A stretch of DNA of 64,000 bases from Planctomycetaceae bacterium (GTDB taxonomy: Bacteria > Planctomycetota > Planctomycetia > Pirellulales > Pirellulaceae), in contig JABJJO010000084.1 of NCBI GenBank assembly GCA_018660825.1, forward strand, positions 1 through 64,000. The letters run 5' to 3'. The position numbers and the translations under genes were made by a program. Below the pieces are notes generated by a model. That model searched no databases, was not told the DNA's origin, and was given only the letters and a program-made list of their open reading frames with translations. This document shows, in pieces, positions 29,322 to 40,995 of this stretch. Numbering within the stretch: position 1 is the first letter of the stretch; each line of letters opens with the position of its first letter.

Positions 29322-29421
29322 GGAAGTGGAAGCACACCTGGTGGTGGCCGCGGTCTTCAAAACCGACGAGCCGTGCGTGAACCGTAGGGCTGGTGGGTTC
29401 GATTCCCATACACTTCCGCCA
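29322..29421 (+). tRNA. selC: tRNA-Sec (anticodon TCA)
   Basis: 100 nt including an encoded CCA (29419-29421) after a G discriminator. The acceptor stem pairs GGAAGTG with CACTTCC (seven pairs, an eighth position is G/A). The T-arm GTGGG-TTCGATT-CCCAT follows the standard loop. The anticodon loop is CTTCAAA with TCA at 29357-29359, closed by CGGT/ACCG. A long variable arm with AGCC/GGCT at its base separates anticodon and T arms. Length, long extra arm and UCA anticodon are specific to selenocysteine tRNA, which reads UGA. It is charged with serine and converted by SelA (present at 39607). Sits 44 bp after the small rsmA-coupled gene. Confidence 0.95.
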
Positions 29422-34264: not shown

Positions 34265-34393
34265 GTGACCATTTTACGCATTGGCTCCACACCCAAATAT
34301 TCATCAAACTTCGATAAAGCATTCAGCGCTGGCAAGAAGAAAAAGTCGTCCACAAAAACTAAAAAGACCGCTGCGCGCAAGAAGAACAAATAA
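34265..34393 (+). CDS. Small lysine-rich basic protein, unrecognised
   Basis: 42 residues from a GTG start at 34265, preceded by AGGA at 34253-34256 (eight-base gap). The N-terminal half (MTILRIGSTPKYSSNFDKAF) is mixed; the C-terminal half is nearly all Lys, Arg, Ala, Ser and Thr (e.g. KKKKSSTKTKKTAARKKNK). A nucleic-acid- or ribosome-binding role is plausible from charge alone. It has its own -10-like box and sits between ettA and the selenoprotein gene. It is too short for standard gene calling. I do not recognise the family. Confidence 0.65.
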   Translation: MTILRIGSTPKYSSNFDKAFSAGKKKKSSTKTKKTAARKKNK

Positions 34394-34474
34394 ACGCGTT
34401 TGATTATTTTGGTCTACTTAATAAACCAACACAAAAAAACTACAATTTCTATCCCTCGAATTGGAGAAAACCGA

Positions 34475-34711
34475 ATGAAAATTCACCTGCGCTACTGCTC
34501 CGCCTGAAACTACGAACCCAAAGCTGTCAGTTTGACAGCCAAAATTCTGATGCAATTCAAACAACAGGTTAGCAGTCTTGAGTTACAACCGGACCAGGGT
34601 GGTTGCTTTGAACTAACGGTCGGCAATGAATTGATTTATTCCAAATTGGAGACCAAAGAATTCCCTGATGAAGACCAAGTGATCACTGCAATCGCAGAGC
34701 AAATCGCCTGA
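34475..34711 (+). CDS. SelW/Rdx-family selenoprotein (in-frame TGA at codon 11 read as selenocysteine)
   Basis: 78 residues if TGA at 34505-34507 is read as Sec. The start ATG has GGAG at 34463-34466 (eight-base gap). Residues 7-12 read Y-C-S-A-U-N, the CxxU redox motif found at the same place in SelW/SelT/SelH-like thioredoxin-fold proteins. The later GGCFELTVGNELIYSK segment matches the family's G-x-F-E-v...g..l..SK pattern, and the length matches bacterial SelW-like proteins. Reading continues in frame for 67 codons after the TGA to a second TGA at 34709-34711. A hairpin of SECIS type follows the first TGA. selC, selB and selA in the same window supply the decoding machinery. Presumed cytoplasmic thiol oxidoreductase; partner unknown. 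Confidence 0.9.
34523..34539 (+). promoter_or_regulatory. Bacterial SECIS element (selenocysteine insertion hairpin)
   Basis: GCTGTCA (34523-34529) and TGACAGC (34533-34539) form a perfect 7-bp stem with the 3-base loop GTT (34530-34532). The stem starts 15 bases after the in-frame TGA, and the loop starts after 22. Known bacterial SECIS elements have an apical loop roughly 16-37 nt after the UGA with a G among the first two loop bases; both hold. It lies inside the coding sequence, as bacterial SECIS elements do, and binds the SelB C-terminal winged helices. Confidence 0.85.
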
Positions 34712-34771: not shown

Positions 34772-35584
34772 GTGTCTATGAAAATTGGATTTATCGGTGC
34801 TGGTCAAATGGCGACAGCGCTGGCACGCGGCTTCGTAGCGTCTCAAGAGAAGGACGATGGGCCCGCGATTTCATTCTTCGATCCCTCCCCGGAAGCCTGT
34901 GCCCAATTCTCAAAATCCATCTCAACAGCAACCCTCTTGGCGGACGCGCCCGAAGTTGTCACCACAGCTGACATTGTATTTTTAGCCGTCAAACCTCAGA
35001 TTCTTCCCGCTGTGCTAGACTCCATTGCTACAGTGGTCACTACCGATGTATTGTTAGTGTCCATCGCCGCTGGCGTCAGGCTCGACGTTATCTGTGGTCG
35101 AACTCGCAGCGACCGCGTTATCCGCGTAATGCCAAATACGCCCTGCCTCATTTCCAAAGCGGCTACTGCCTTTAGCCCCGCCCGTGGCGCGACTGCTACA
35201 GATTGTGCTGCGGTGCAGAACTTACTCGATAGCGTTGGAATTGCCTACCAATTATCCGAGAATTGTTTAGATGCTGTCACTGGGCTCAGCGGTTCAGGAC
35301 CGGCTTATATCTATACCGTAGTCCAAGCACTCTGCGCCGGTGGGGTCGCCATGGGATTATCTGAAGATGTGGCGCTCCAATTGGCTGCGCAGACTGCAAA
35401 AGGAGCGGCCGAGATGATACTTCAAACAGGTTTGCCACCGCAGCAACTTATCGATCAAGTCACTAGCCCTGGTGGGACAACTCTCGCGGGCCTAAAAGTG
35501 ATGCACGATGAAGACATATCCGCTACGCTAATAAGAACGGTACGCGCCGCGACGAACCGTTCAATCGAACTAGGTAAATCGTAG
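34772..35584 (+). CDS. proC: Pyrroline-5-carboxylate reductase
   Basis: 270 residues. Rossmann motif GFIGAGQMATALARGF at the N-terminus, then FLAVKPQ, VMPNTPC and GLSGSGPAYIYTVVQ, and TSPGGTTLAGL near the C-terminus, all diagnostic. It performs the last NAD(P)H-dependent step of proline biosynthesis. GTG at 34772 is preferred because AGAAGG (34758-34763) lies eight bases upstream; an ATG two codons later is the alternative. It follows the selenoprotein gene by 60 bp. Confidence 0.96.
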   Translation: MSMKIGFIGAGQMATALARGFVASQEKDDGPAISFFDPSPEACAQFSKSISTATLLADAPEVVTTADIVFLAVKPQILPAVLDSIATVVTTDVLLVSIAAGVRLDVICGRTRSDRVIRVMPNTPCLISKAATAFSPARGATATDCAAVQNLLDSVGIAYQLSENCLDAVTGLSGSGPAYIYTVVQALCAGGVAMGLSEDVALQLAAQTAKGAAEMILQTGLPPQQLIDQVTSPGGTTLAGLKVMHDEDISATLIRTVRAATNRSIELGKS

Positions 35585-35622
35585 ATCCACACATCGCAAA
35601 TCCGCGCGAAGGAAATTGGGAA

Positions 35623-36111
35623 ATGTCACTTTTTGACGATCCGAACTATAGCTGGCGAGACACATTTCTAGTGTTGTTTGATGACGAACATCGCCCCACG
35701 ATTGAACTGGCAATATCAGCAATTCAGAAAATCGGAAAATTCGAAGTGCAGAATACGTCCGAATCTGATTCTCGACACATTGAGGCTGTAACTATTATTT
35801 CTAGCGTTGATCTTGTCGGACTCGAAATCCTCTATGTCGCAGGTGACGAAGTGATTGAGGAAACTGAGGCACTCGTCATCGAACTCGCCGAAGATGCAAT
35901 GCTACTTGGCAATGAAGATTCGTTAACCCAACTGTCTACCGCCAATGCCCGTTTTGATATTTTGCATTTCGAGAAAATCACAGCGAACTCCAACGAACCG
36001 AGTGACGATAATGAACTTATGGATCCTGGATCCTTGCTCGCCGTAACGGCAGCTTTGGCTGACTTGGTTAGCGGCGTTGCCGTCGACCCGAGTTCCGCGT
36101 CATTTGTGTAA
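35623..36111 (+). CDS. Acidic protein of unknown function
   Basis: 162 residues, strongly acidic, no signal peptide or membrane segment. It begins MSLFDDPNYSWRDTFLVLFDDEHRPT and has an alternating beta-alpha pattern (VTIISSVDLVGLEILYVAGDEVI, then EALVIELAED). The N-terminal 120 residues look like a compact fold; the tail is disordered. The family is not recognised. It lies 38 bp after proC and before efpL on the same strand. Confidence 0.68.
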   Translation: MSLFDDPNYSWRDTFLVLFDDEHRPTIELAISAIQKIGKFEVQNTSESDSRHIEAVTIISSVDLVGLEILYVAGDEVIEETEALVIELAEDAMLLGNEDSLTQLSTANARFDILHFEKITANSNEPSDDNELMDPGSLLAVTAALADLVSGVAVDPSSASFV

Positions 36112-36195
36112 AGCATGGATAGTATCCCTAGTTAATTCAATTTAATCACTGATATTCTTGTAGCCCTTACCAAAACCACGAAGGAAAAGAAAACG

Positions 36196-36759
36196 ATGCA
36201 AGCCAAGGAAATTAAAAACGGCACAGTCGTTAACTTCAACGGAGCTCCTGTTATTATCCAGGGCATCAATGTCCAATCGCCATCTGCCCGTGGCGCAGCG
36301 ACCTTGTACAAATTCCGCGGACGTAATTTAGTAACCAAACAAAAGGTCGATATCACACTCAAAGGTACCGAATCACTAGATGAAGCAGACTTTCAAAGAC
36401 AAGCGGTTTCTTTGATGTATACCGATGCGACCGACGCCCATTTTATGGATTCGGCCAACTACAACCAATATTCCATCGCACTCGAAGACGTTGCCCATGA
36501 AATGCAATACATTACCGAGCAACTCCAAGGCATTTTGGCATTAATCTATAATGACCAATGTGTTGGCGTCCAAATTCCAACAACGGTAGAACTGGAGATC
36601 GCCCAAACGGATCCGGCAGTCAAAGGAAACTCTGCAACCAGTCGCACCAAACCCGCTACATTGTCGACGGGAGTGCAAATCCAAGTGCCCGAATATCTGA
36701 AACAAGGTGAAACCATTAAAGTCGACACTCGCGAAAACCAATTTTTAGGGCGGGCATAA
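36196..36759 (+). CDS. efpL: Elongation factor P-like protein EfpL (YeiP type)
   Basis: 187 residues with the three EF-P domains. The tip loop reads SPSARGAATLYKFRG, so an arginine stands where classical EF-P has its modified lysine (PGKGxAF type). The same loop (SPTARGAATLYK) occurs in YeiP/EfpL of E. coli, and the downstream VDLEI-, KPATLSTG- and VQVPEYL-type motifs also match. EfpL relieves ribosome stalling at polyproline and other sequences without needing lysine modification. No EF-P modification gene lies nearby. The assignment as EfpL instead of EF-P is based on this loop. Confidence 0.9.
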   Translation: MQAKEIKNGTVVNFNGAPVIIQGINVQSPSARGAATLYKFRGRNLVTKQKVDITLKGTESLDEADFQRQAVSLMYTDATDAHFMDSANYNQYSIALEDVAHEMQYITEQLQGILALIYNDQCVGVQIPTTVELEIAQTDPAVKGNSATSRTKPATLSTGVQIQVPEYLKQGETIKVDTRENQFLGRA

Positions 36760-37384: not shown

Positions 37385-37525
37385 TAATCAGTAATAACAA
37401 AGGACTGCTGGTATCTACGACAGTGTAACTAAGAACACATTTTCAAGCTGTGACTAACCCATCGGTTCAAACTGTCGCAGATACTCATGATTGTGTCCAG
37501 AGCGAATAAGCGTAAACTAGTGTAT

Positions 37526-39517
37526 ATGAATGAGTCCACCACAACCGCCGATTCACCTTCCAATGAGATCGCATTAATCCTTGGGACTGCTGGTCATATT
37601 GATCATGGAAAAACTGCTTTAATCCACGCGCTCACAGGGAAAAACACCGATCAGCTTCCAGAAGAAAAAAAACGCGGAATTACGATCGAACTCGGATTTG
37701 CTCAACTGCATCTAGAACCATTCAAATTAGGCATCGTTGACGTTCCCGGGCACGAAAAATTCGTTCGCAACATGCTCTCGGGGGCAACCGGCTTAGATTT
37801 AGCAATGCTAATCGTAGCGGCCGATGATTCCGTAAAACCTCAAACACTGGAACACCTCGAAATCCTACGATACCTCGATATTGCAGCAGGCATTATCGTG
37901 ATCACCAAAACGGACCTGGTGGATGACGATCTCTTGGAACTCGTCGAGGAAGAAATTCGTGAGATTTGCAAAAACACTTTCCTACAAGACGCCCCCATTG
38001 TTCATACCAGCGCACATACTGGCGCCGGAATTGATGAACTCAAACAAACACTCCGACAACAATGTCAGAGCATTGCTGATCGTCAATTAAACAAACAATC
38101 CGAGATGTTTCGATTAGCCATCGACAGAAGCTTCACACTCGAGGGCCACGGAACGATTGTCACAGGTAGCGTCATCAGTGGTCAATTGAATATTGACGAT
38201 CAGGTTACACTCGAACCAAGCGGTGATGTTGTCCGCGTTCGCAGTCTACAAAACCACGACCATTCGGTGGATTCCATCGTCCGGGGAGAACGCGCTGCGA
38301 TCAATCTAGCAGGCGTTAAACCCCATCAAATTTACCGAGGCATGGAATTAGCATCCGCTGGTTTTCTTAAACCATACAAATTGCTGTCAGTATCACTTAC
38401 AGTTTCCGATTCGGCACAGCACCCTATAAAAAACCACAGTCGCATGCAATTACACATTGGCACGGCTAACATCCCTCTGTCCGTCAAACTGCTGGACACT
38501 GAAGTGCTTTTCCCCGGTGAATCCGGACTGGCCCAACTCGCTTTAGACCACCAAGTCGTTTGCACTTGGAACCAACCTTTTGTTCTGCGACTTGAATCGC
38601 CCGTAACAACCATTGCCGGTGGCAGAATCCTACAACCAAGAGCTAAGCGAATCGTGTTTGACGACCAAGAAAGTCTGCAATTCCTAGGTCAACTTACGGC
38701 AGCAAATCCGGACATCACACGAATTGAAGCGGCTATCTTCCTCGAAGGGTTACCCCCAACCAAAACCGATGCGTTGGAGCTTTTGACGGGAGTTGCTGAC
38801 ACGGATCAACTGGTCTTACAACTACTTGAATCTGGTGCGGTATTTGATTATCCCCATTCGGCAACCGGTAGTAACAATAGACTCAATCTTGTTCATCCAA
38901 TTGCGCTTCGTAGAATCTGGTGCCGAGTCCAGAATATTTTGCAAAAAGAACATGACCGAAACCCACTGAAAACAACTCTTGCTCTGACGCCGCTGAAGAC
39001 TAGGCTTGCTTACCTTGGTACGGAACATCAAATAAATCAAGTTTTTTCACATTTCCAGCGAGAGGGACATCTGACTTTGCATAGCGGCAACGTCACGTTA
39101 AAGGGGCAGGGACCTCAACTCACAAAAAACGAACGAAAACTGCTCGAAGCAACAGTGCAGCAAATTCGTCAGGCAGGTCTTAATACGATGCTTGTTAAAG
39201 AAATTGAGAGTCAGGCAGGAGCTCAAAAATCGGCGGTCGCGCAACTACTACAAGTTGCTGTGGCTAATAATGAATTAGTCGAAATATCGCCTACCTACTT
39301 TATCCACTCAGATGTCTTGCAGGAAACTAAACAACAGCTGCAAAATCAACTAGTTCCCCATAAATCTTATACGATATCCGAAATCCGCAGCATTCTCGAT
39401 ACCACTCGAAAATACGCCATCCCTTTGTGCGAATATTTCGATCGTATCGGTTTTACTATCCGCAATAATGACCAACGACAACTCTGTAGCGAACAACCCT
39501 TGTCGCCACAGAGTTAA
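37526..39517 (+). CDS. selB: Selenocysteine-specific elongation factor SelB
   Basis: 663 residues from the ATG at 37526; an upstream in-frame ATG would add 13 residues. N-terminal GTPase: G1 [15 protein letters not shown]2 region [12 protein letters not shown]3 [13 protein letters not shown]4 ITKTDLV. The [12 protein letters not shown] sequence is specific to SelB-type factors. EF-Tu-like domains II and III follow ([15 protein letters not shown]). The C-terminal about 230 residues form winged helices, which bind the SECIS hairpin in mRNA. It delivers Sec-tRNA-Sec to UGA. It lies 89 bp upstream of selA on the same strand. Confidence 0.97.
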
Positions 39518-39606: not shown

Positions 39607-40995
39607 ATGAATGAACTACTACGACAACTTCCGTCAGTCACCGACATTTTGGCACAAGCTGAGATTCAGGTGTTGCTGCGCAGTATCAGGCAAGAAACGA
39701 TTGTCGCCGCGGCCCGCAATGTGCTTGATTCAATCCGCCGTGACATCCTCGCCCAAAACGACTCGACGCCACCTTCGCTCGATGCAATTACACAGTCAAC
39801 CATCGTAGCCCTCAAACTATATCAAGCGACCACATTAAAGTCTGTGATAAATGCAACGGGGATATTGTTGCATACCGGATTAGGTCGAGCCCCGCTGCCT
39901 GCGGCCGCGTTAGAGGCAATCACCCAGATTGGGCAAGGCTATGCCAGCGTAGAAATAAATCTACCATCAGGTAAACGATCCAATCGCGCCGATGCTGTGG
40001 AAAACAAGCTCTGCCATCTGTTCGGTTGTGAAGCGGCGACTGTCGTCAACAATAATGCCGGAGCCACATTGTTAGCGTTGTCAGCATTAGCTGATGGCAA
40101 GCAAGCGATTGTGTCACGCGGTGAATTAGTCGAAATAGGTGGTAGTTTTCGCATGCCCGATGTGATGAATGCTAGCGGCACTCAGATGTGCGAAGTCGGA
40201 ACAACAAATAAAACTCGAGCGGTAGATTACACTAACGCCATTAATGACAACACTGCCGTATTAATGAAAATCCATTGCAGCAACTATCACATTGCTGGAT
40301 TTAGTGAAAGCGCGACCATTGCCGAATTGGCCGCCGTAGCTCACGACCATGACTTGCTACTCATCGATGACATCGGATCCGGTGCTTTCTTCGACTACAC
40401 AACATTCGGGATTCAACAGGAACCGATGCCAGTTCAGAGCTTGAGAGATGGCGCAGACGTAGTGCTCTTCAGTGGCGATAAATTACTTGGCGGACCCCAA
40501 TGCGGTATCATTATTGGAAAGCAAACCTGCCTTGACCACATTAACAAACACCCATTAATGCGTGCCCTACGTTTGGATAAAACTATCTATGCAGCACTTT
40601 CGGCAACACTAGACATCTATTTAGGTCCTCACCCAGAACAGCACATCCCACTGTTGCAATTGCTCATAGAACCCATGGATCAGTTGCAACAGCGCGCCGA
40701 GACAACTGCCAAGGAGATTCGAATAAATTCATCAGACGAGCTGGCTATTCAGACTGTTTCAGATACGACCTTTTTAGGTGGAGGTAGCGTCCCAGGGCAG
40801 GAAATTGCCACCGTTTGTATTGTACTTGAGCACCAGAGCATTTCGCCAGACGAGATTTCTAGGCGATTACGCACTTGCGAGACGCCACTGCTTGGACGAA
40901 TTCATGATAACCGCTTCACCATCGACTTCCGTAGTGTGTTTGCAACCGAAGATTCCCGCATTGCCAATGCAGTCATTGAAACGCTCAATGCATAG
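39607..40995 (+). CDS. selA: L-seryl-tRNA(Sec) selenium transferase SelA
   Basis: 462 residues, the usual length. Fold-type I PLP enzyme that converts Ser-tRNA-Sec to Sec-tRNA-Sec using selenophosphate. Motifs: INATGILLHTGLGRAPL, VNNNAGATLLAL, VGTTNKTR, IDDIGSGAFFD, and the Schiff-base lysine Lys292 in FSGDKLLGGPQCG. The N-terminal helical domain for tRNA recognition (RQLPSVTDILAQ) is present. It is directly downstream of selB, so they are likely co-transcribed. SelD, which makes selenophosphate, is not in this window. Confidence 0.97.
   Translation: MNELLRQLPSVTDILAQAEIQVLLRSIRQETIVAAARNVLDSIRRDILAQNDSTPPSLDAITQSTIVALKLYQATTLKSVINATGILLHTGLGRAPLPAAALEAITQIGQGYASVEINLPSGKRSNRADAVENKLCHLFGCEAATVVNNNAGATLLALSALADGKQAIVSRGELVEIGGSFRMPDVMNASGTQMCEVGTTNKTRAVDYTNAINDNTAVLMKIHCSNYHIAGFSESATIAELAAVAHDHDLLLIDDIGSGAFFDYTTFGIQQEPMPVQSLRDGADVVLFSGDKLLGGPQCGIIIGKQTCLDHINKHPLMRALRLDKTIYAALSATLDIYLGPHPEQHIPLLQLLIEPMDQLQQRAETTAKEIRINSSDELAIQTVSDTTFLGGGSVPGQEIATVCIVLEHQSISPDEISRRLRTCETPLLGRIHDNRFTIDFRSVFATEDSRIANAVIETLNA

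Follow-up and report, generated by a model that had tools for sequence, protein, structure and literature searches.

The question raised by this locus is whether a short frame that is interrupted by a TGA at its eleventh codon is a damaged gene or a selenoprotein gene in which that TGA is read as selenocysteine (Sec). The frame lies at 34475..34711 on the plus strand of the window, which is the whole 64,000-nucleotide stretch of planctomycete DNA that was analysed. It begins with ATG, contains a single in-frame TGA, at codon 11 (34505..34507, plus strand), and ends with a TGA that is directly followed by TAA. A ribosome binding site, GGAG, is present at 34463..34466 on the same strand, 8 nt before the ATG at 34475. 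When the internal TGA is read through, the product is 78 residues long and resembles SelW, with a C8xxU11 motif (Cys8 and Sec11, the UGA codon supplying the second position of CxxU) and a GGCFE block. An earlier, sequence-only reading of this DNA had proposed the 78-residue frame with its TGA at 34505-34507, the CxxU motif together with a G-x-F-E block, and the ribosome binding site, and each of these was borne out when the sequence was read again. It was found in an open reading frame scan with genetic code table 11 that no same-strand frame of at least 60 amino acids covers 34475-34711. Annotation readily misses or truncates short UGA-interrupted genes such as selW, and the right annotation of selW yields one more redox protein and flags the carriers as users of selenium.

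The read-through product was searched against the SelW/Rdx families, a check that the earlier reading had asked for, and it exceeded the cut-offs in both Pfam (Rdx, PF10262, 70 bits, cut-off 22.6) and NCBIfam (SelT/SelW/SelH, TIGR02174, 63.3 bits, cut-off 34.2). The best E-value in NCBIfam was obtained with the SelT/SelW/SelH equivalog NF041051 (SelTWH_Campy), but the score of 71.5 bits is under its cut-off of 88, and so the planctomycete SelW was not assigned to that equivalog. In the source genome, the selW-like gene, with one TGA inside, is the single Rdx match at E ≤ 1.

A sequence search of the PDB returned seven SelW/Rdx-type entries, six bacterial and one from mouse, as well as C17orf37/MIEN1, all with E-values of 0.035 or better; a ninth match, to a laccase subunit (E 1.6), was taken as chance. 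The structure of the product was predicted from a 36-row alignment with a mean pLDDT of 86.6, and the model consists of a strand at residues 2-8, a helix at 14-28, three more strands and a C-terminal helix, with Cys8 and Sec11 in the turn that links strand 1 to helix 1. A Foldseek search with this model gave 23 PDB matches at E ≤ 0.001, all from the same eight entries as the sequence search. Query-normalised TM-scores were 0.86-0.94 for the six bacterial structures (2fa8, 2obk, 3dex, 2p0g, 2oka and 2ojl; 18-30% identity) and 0.72 each for mouse SelW (2npb) and MIEN1. On the basis of this model, the product is predicted to have the thioredoxin-like SelW fold. The planctomycete protein is thus like the solved bacterial Rdx-type proteins in fold, whereas in the two alignments compared, those with 2fa8 and 3dex, the solved proteins carry CxxC and the planctomycete SelW carries CxxU.

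The conservation of the TGA was evaluated in two genome samples. In the set of 60 genomes, an Rdx match was present in 31, counting the source genome, and these comprised 28 with a short SelW containing TGA, one (G002) with a stop-free short SelW, and two that had only a longer CxxC type. The scan of genome contigs contributed 21 loci; the set came to 51 loci, 48 of which align to the query (duplicates included), and two partial Rdx matches miss the TGA site. The codon at the site in the 48 aligned loci, again with duplicates, was TGA in 44, TGT in 3 and TGC in 1 (locus L014, from G002), and the three TGT loci form a separate, longer CxxC subfamily. In a sample of the phylum, the SelW alignment was matched in 141 of 392 genomes; at least one TGA was found in 139 of 150, and none in 11 of 150, among the matches listed, and TGA was at the CxxU position in all 30 phylum loci read (the best 30 of the matches listed, window included). 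Merging by sequence, with the longer CxxC loci left out, gave 70 distinct SelW places, which take in two Poribacteria and Evansella (a Firmicute), all three also with TGA. The earlier reading had singled out the residue at this site in relatives, and the conservation downstream of it, as the points on which its proposal would stand or fall: the site is TGA in 69 of the 70 places and TGC (Cys) in the remaining one, and the downstream sequence is strongly conserved.

In the comparison of the window with its nearest relative, L024, the 195 nt after the TGA gave a dN of 0.026 and a dS of 0.235 (dN/dS about 0.11). For other same-genus pairs, dS was above 2 or not computable, and the amino-acid identity was 60-92%. 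The invariant columns among 36 sequences include Cys8, position 11, Tyr13, Pro15, Gly42-43, Phe45, Ser56-Lys57 and Phe63-Pro64. Judged by these comparisons, the sequence 3′ of the TGA is under purifying selection.

A bacterial SECIS-type hairpin with a 7 bp stem and the loop GUU was located at 34523..34539 on the plus strand by folding and covariation. The UGA is separated from the 3-nt loop by 22 nt, and the folding energy is −9.4 kcal/mol over 48 nt and −10.2 kcal/mol over 56 nt. The hairpin is modestly more stable than shuffled sequences (z −1.83; 13 of 200 shuffles at least as stable), whereas the 56 nt after UGA-79 gave −4.5 kcal/mol and a z of +1.43. The bacterial SECIS criteria in the legend of Figure 2 of PMC13188914 are a loop of 3-9 nt with an upper stem of 4-16 bp, a G in the first two loop positions, a distance of 16-37 nt from UGA to loop, and an energy of −7.5 kcal/mol or lower, and the hairpin of the window lies within all four constraints of that legend (loop and stem size, loop G, spacing and energy). 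Over 48 nt, the fold is weaker in several relatives (−5.8 kcal/mol in L012, for instance).

Covariation was assessed in 38 distinct sequences (alignment A1) against 500 shuffles, and kinship among the sequences inflates the shuffle tests, as it does the Fisher test given below. The proportion of paired cells was 84.6% relative to 80.0% on shuffling, the covariation score was 0.251 relative to 0.159, and the number of cells with both sides changed was 9 relative to 2.2; each of these values was reached by 0 of 500 shuffles. The observed value for further pair types was reached by 2 of 500 shuffles, and that for the number of pairs changed on both sides, which was 2, by 35 of 500. When the partners were slid by 1-3 columns, pairing was only 23-51% and covariation no higher than 0.123, and slides of +1 or +3 gave 3 pairs changed on both sides as compared to the 2 of the true structure. 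RNAalifold, unaided, proposed the inner five pairs of the hairpin.

Three genes of the Sec machinery are close to selW. The tRNA-Sec gene selC is at 29322..29417 (plus strand; Rfam RF01852, 63.9 bits, gathering score 47) and was found with Rfam, ARAGORN having reported no tRNA in the window. The gene for the Sec-specific elongation factor, selB, is at 37487..39517 (plus strand; TIGR00475, 370.9 bits, cut-off 242.25), and selA, encoding L-seryl-tRNA(Sec) selenium transferase, is at 39607..40995 (plus strand; TIGR00474, 535.9 bits, cut-off 267.9). Relative to selW, selC is 5.1 kb upstream, and selB and selA are 2.8 and 4.9 kb downstream. The earlier statement that the three genes lie within 6 kb was nearly exact, in that all of them start inside this distance and the end of selA is 6.3 kb downstream. 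SelD is encoded elsewhere in the source genome, with an in-frame TGA of its own, and the Sec-decoding set of selA, selB, selC and selD is therefore complete in this genome.

The same association was found across the 60 genomes, most of which are drafts. It was found that selA was over its cut-off in 27 of the 28 genomes with SelW-TGA and in 11 of the 32 others; the values for selB were 25 of 28 and 7 of 32, and those for selC, at a limit of 60 bits that was our own choice, 26 of 28 and 6 of 32. The co-occurrence of SelW-TGA with selA, selB and selC gave P values of 4e-7 to 4e-9, a significance that is inflated by kinship. At the Rfam gathering score, selC passes in 46 of the 60 genomes, and the extra passes are probably other tRNAs with a long variable arm. 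All three sel genes were present in 23 of the 28 SelW-TGA genomes and at least two in 27, and none of the 28 lacked all three. At least two of the three genes were also found in seven genomes without SelW-TGA (G002, G005, G015, G019, G022, G039 and G056), among which G002 has the Cys form and G005 is interrupted by a contig end. SelW-TGA comes with the machinery, and the machinery also occurs without SelW-TGA.

These results bear on three other explanations of the locus. The TGA might be a nonsense codon, or a sequencing error, in an ordinary CxxC Rdx gene; table 11 does read the codon as a stop, and L014, a relative from the same genus, has Cys in its place. However, this TGA is found in 69 of 70 distinct SelW places, and the downstream dN/dS is about 0.11 in the comparison with the nearest relative; we regard a pseudogene or error as extremely improbable. 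It could also be argued that the UGA is decoded as some other amino acid, by a suppressor tRNA or in a recoded genome, since read-through by itself leaves the identity of the residue undefined. Against this, the genome has selA, selB, selC and SelD, Cys is the sole other residue seen at the position, and 20 of 45 selW loci, counting duplicates and the window, use TGA as their terminal stop; this explanation, too, is extremely improbable. A general recoding of the stop codon was rejected on the same grounds.

The remaining explanation concerns the hairpin, which could be a by-product of the conserved peptide A-V-S-L-A/T and carry no RNA signal. In its favour are the conservation of the peptide and the frequent breaks in the outer pairs 19-35 and 20-34 (in 18 and 16 of the 38 sequences, respectively). 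In addition, 8 of the 30 phylum loci are of a GTG-AGC type in which pair 21-33 is lost in 7 of 8, and the pair is formed in 23 of the 30. But both partners of pair 21-33 are silent third positions (codon 6, Ala, and codon 10, Ala/Thr), and the pair is formed in 34 of 38 sequences relative to 26.8 on shuffling, a value reached by 0 of 20000 shuffles. The Ser at codon +8 is encoded exclusively by AGY (36/36), whereas the conserved Ser of Y-S-K is AGY in only 4 of 40 (Fisher 1.5e-17, with related sequences treated as independent), and the loop G, column 26, is invariant in 38/38. With the silent covariation, the serine codon type and the invariant loop base against it, we consider a mere peptide by-product very unlikely.

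Taken together, the TGA or Cys at the site, the downstream conservation, the SECIS-type hairpin and the full machinery support the Sec read-through that had been proposed, and from them we infer the insertion. The locus is almost certainly a true SelW-like (Rdx, PF10262) selenoprotein gene, in which Sec insertion at codon 11 would be driven by SelB and the hairpin and the product would be a thioredoxin-like redox protein. Bacterial Sec insertion and the thioredoxin fold are well established, and the proposed steps build on both. The nearby selC and selA would yield Sec-tRNA(Sec), SelD being the source of selenophosphate, and SelB carrying Sec-tRNA(Sec) would bind the hairpin, which lies 16-32 nt downstream of the UGA, and insert Sec at codon 11. 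UGA-11 would be read by SelB because the hairpin comes after it, whereas UGA-79, which has no comparable hairpin after it, would terminate translation. The Cys8/Sec11 redox pair probably cycles between the selenol/thiol and selenenylsulfide forms, and the product is probably a peroxide- or disulfide-reducing redox protein.

In the window, selW is located between an ABC-F gene and proC. The order in the same-genus genomes G001, G002 and G004 is guaA, ABC-F, selW, the proC-orf-efp block in inverted orientation, selB, selA and guaB; G014, of another genus, has guaA, ABC-F, selW, the inverted block, selB and selA in common with them, and G006 follows the G001-type order up to its contig end. The block is oriented as in the window in G007 (contig L031), G012 and L044, and in G047 and G057 proC and the orf are inverted and lie between selW and selB. 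Thus, selW is near selB-selA in several genera. In other genomes, selB is on a different contig from selW (for example G028, G036, G038, G044 and G045), and in G026 it is 112 kb away. We also observed that the block, proC-orf35623-efp at 34778-36759 of the window, is inverted in the same-genus G001, G002, G004 and G006 and not in G007.

G005 probably appears without SelW because its contig, of 8177 bases, stops just past selB, and G006 probably appears without selB and selA because its contig stops right after the homologue of orf36803. G008 and G003 both lacked SelW, had neither selA nor selB over the cut-off and gave no tRNA-Sec match higher than 44 bits; the completeness of G003 is only 69%. 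The idea that the Sec trait was lost in some members of the genus, namely these two, was dropped. G008 has peroxiredoxin-type frames with an in-frame TGA, UxxC in L066 and UxxxC in L065, and the retention of these TGA peroxiredoxins makes it probable that the sel cluster of G008 lies in an assembly gap.

The one SelW with TGC (Cys) in place of Sec is L014 / L070 of G002, a genome that is 81% complete. The contig with this SelW also encodes SelB and SelA in open frames and has a tRNA-Sec hit at 67.9 bits, and G002 keeps a TGA peroxiredoxin (L064). We conclude that Sec was putatively exchanged for Cys once within the genus while the machinery was retained; in the portion of the 2006 survey PMC1794560 that was available, no Sec-to-Cys event is listed for SelW-like proteins. 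As other members of the genus carry the Sec form, Sec and Cys can be compared in SelW in a natural setting with the Cys form of G002. By eye, the L014 hairpin has one broken pair (C-A at 21-33), and L014 has Val where Ala is invariant in 40 TGA sequences; a single case proves nothing in either respect.

A lysine-rich open reading frame of 42 amino acids with a GTG start is located upstream of selW, at 34265..34393 on the plus strand, and it recurs in relatives: it was found 28-380 nt upstream, on the same strand, in 21 of the 70 distinct SelW places (E ≤ 0.01). The predicted protein has no match in Pfam or NCBIfam, and the sole other match to it in the source genome is weak (E 0.49). A tentative extension is that a linked selenium neighbourhood of planctomycetes is made up of selW, the 42-aa frame, selB-selA and selC; SelW might cooperate with the micro-protein, and on at least one occasion (in G002) Cys might have replaced Sec in SelW with the machinery kept. 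We rate this combined proposal as unlikely, although, if true, the genomes of this genus would form a natural series in which to study the advantage that Sec gives SelW.

Bacterial SelW-like selenoproteins have been in print since 2005 and are described as abundant (PMC1088965, PMC2398784), a precedent that the earlier reading did not mention. The family outnumbered every other selenoprotein family in two metagenome surveys, that of the Sargasso Sea with 48 genes (PMC1088965) and GOS with 427 (PMC2398784). Two further bacteria with short SelW genes appear in a 2005 read-through survey (PMC1242214), and a 2026 review gives SelW-like, with CxxU and PF10262, as predicted with high confidence (PMC13188914). 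The function of SelW-like proteins is called unclear in PMC1088965, which mentions an interaction with glutathione. The planctomycete protein is like these bacterial selenoproteins (PF10262, TIGR02174) in its CxxU motif, family profile, Sec codon and a SECIS hairpin placed according to the published model, and it differs in belonging to a planctomycete branch with selC, selB and selA nearby. Planctomycetes with selenoproteins have been described in PMC4807772, and the selenoproteomes P1 and P2 of that study likewise have the full Sec machinery and several predicted selenoproteins; the term SelW, however, is absent from its main text (supplementary table S9 aside). Our literature search, apart from that supplementary table, found no text naming SelW in a planctomycete among the portions of the sources available, and an earlier report is possible. 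The planctomycete selW is a new, well-supported gene of an already named family.

The possibility that SelW is the only selenoprotein of the source genome was rejected, as SelD and six AhpC-TSA-type genes also have an in-frame TGA. The formate dehydrogenase-type (3) and AhpD-type/CMD (2) matches in this genome have no internal stop, whereas 6 of its 19 AhpC-TSA matches contain TGA. These six frames, which are candidate selenoprotein-like genes, comprise a TxxU peroxiredoxin, a UxxC peroxiredoxin-like protein, two tandem WUPPC thioredoxin-like proteins, and proteins with GUVFC and CLTUPPF motifs. The two thioredoxin-like frames lie in tandem in L067 (G000:C35:300-2400), each with WUPPC in which U is the in-frame TGA. 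The CLTUPPF frame (L069, G000:C29), also with an in-frame TGA, is deiodinase-like, with a T4_deiodinase score of 26.3 bits that is just under the cut-off of 27, and it recalls the bacterial deiodinase-like selenoproteins mentioned in PMC1088965.
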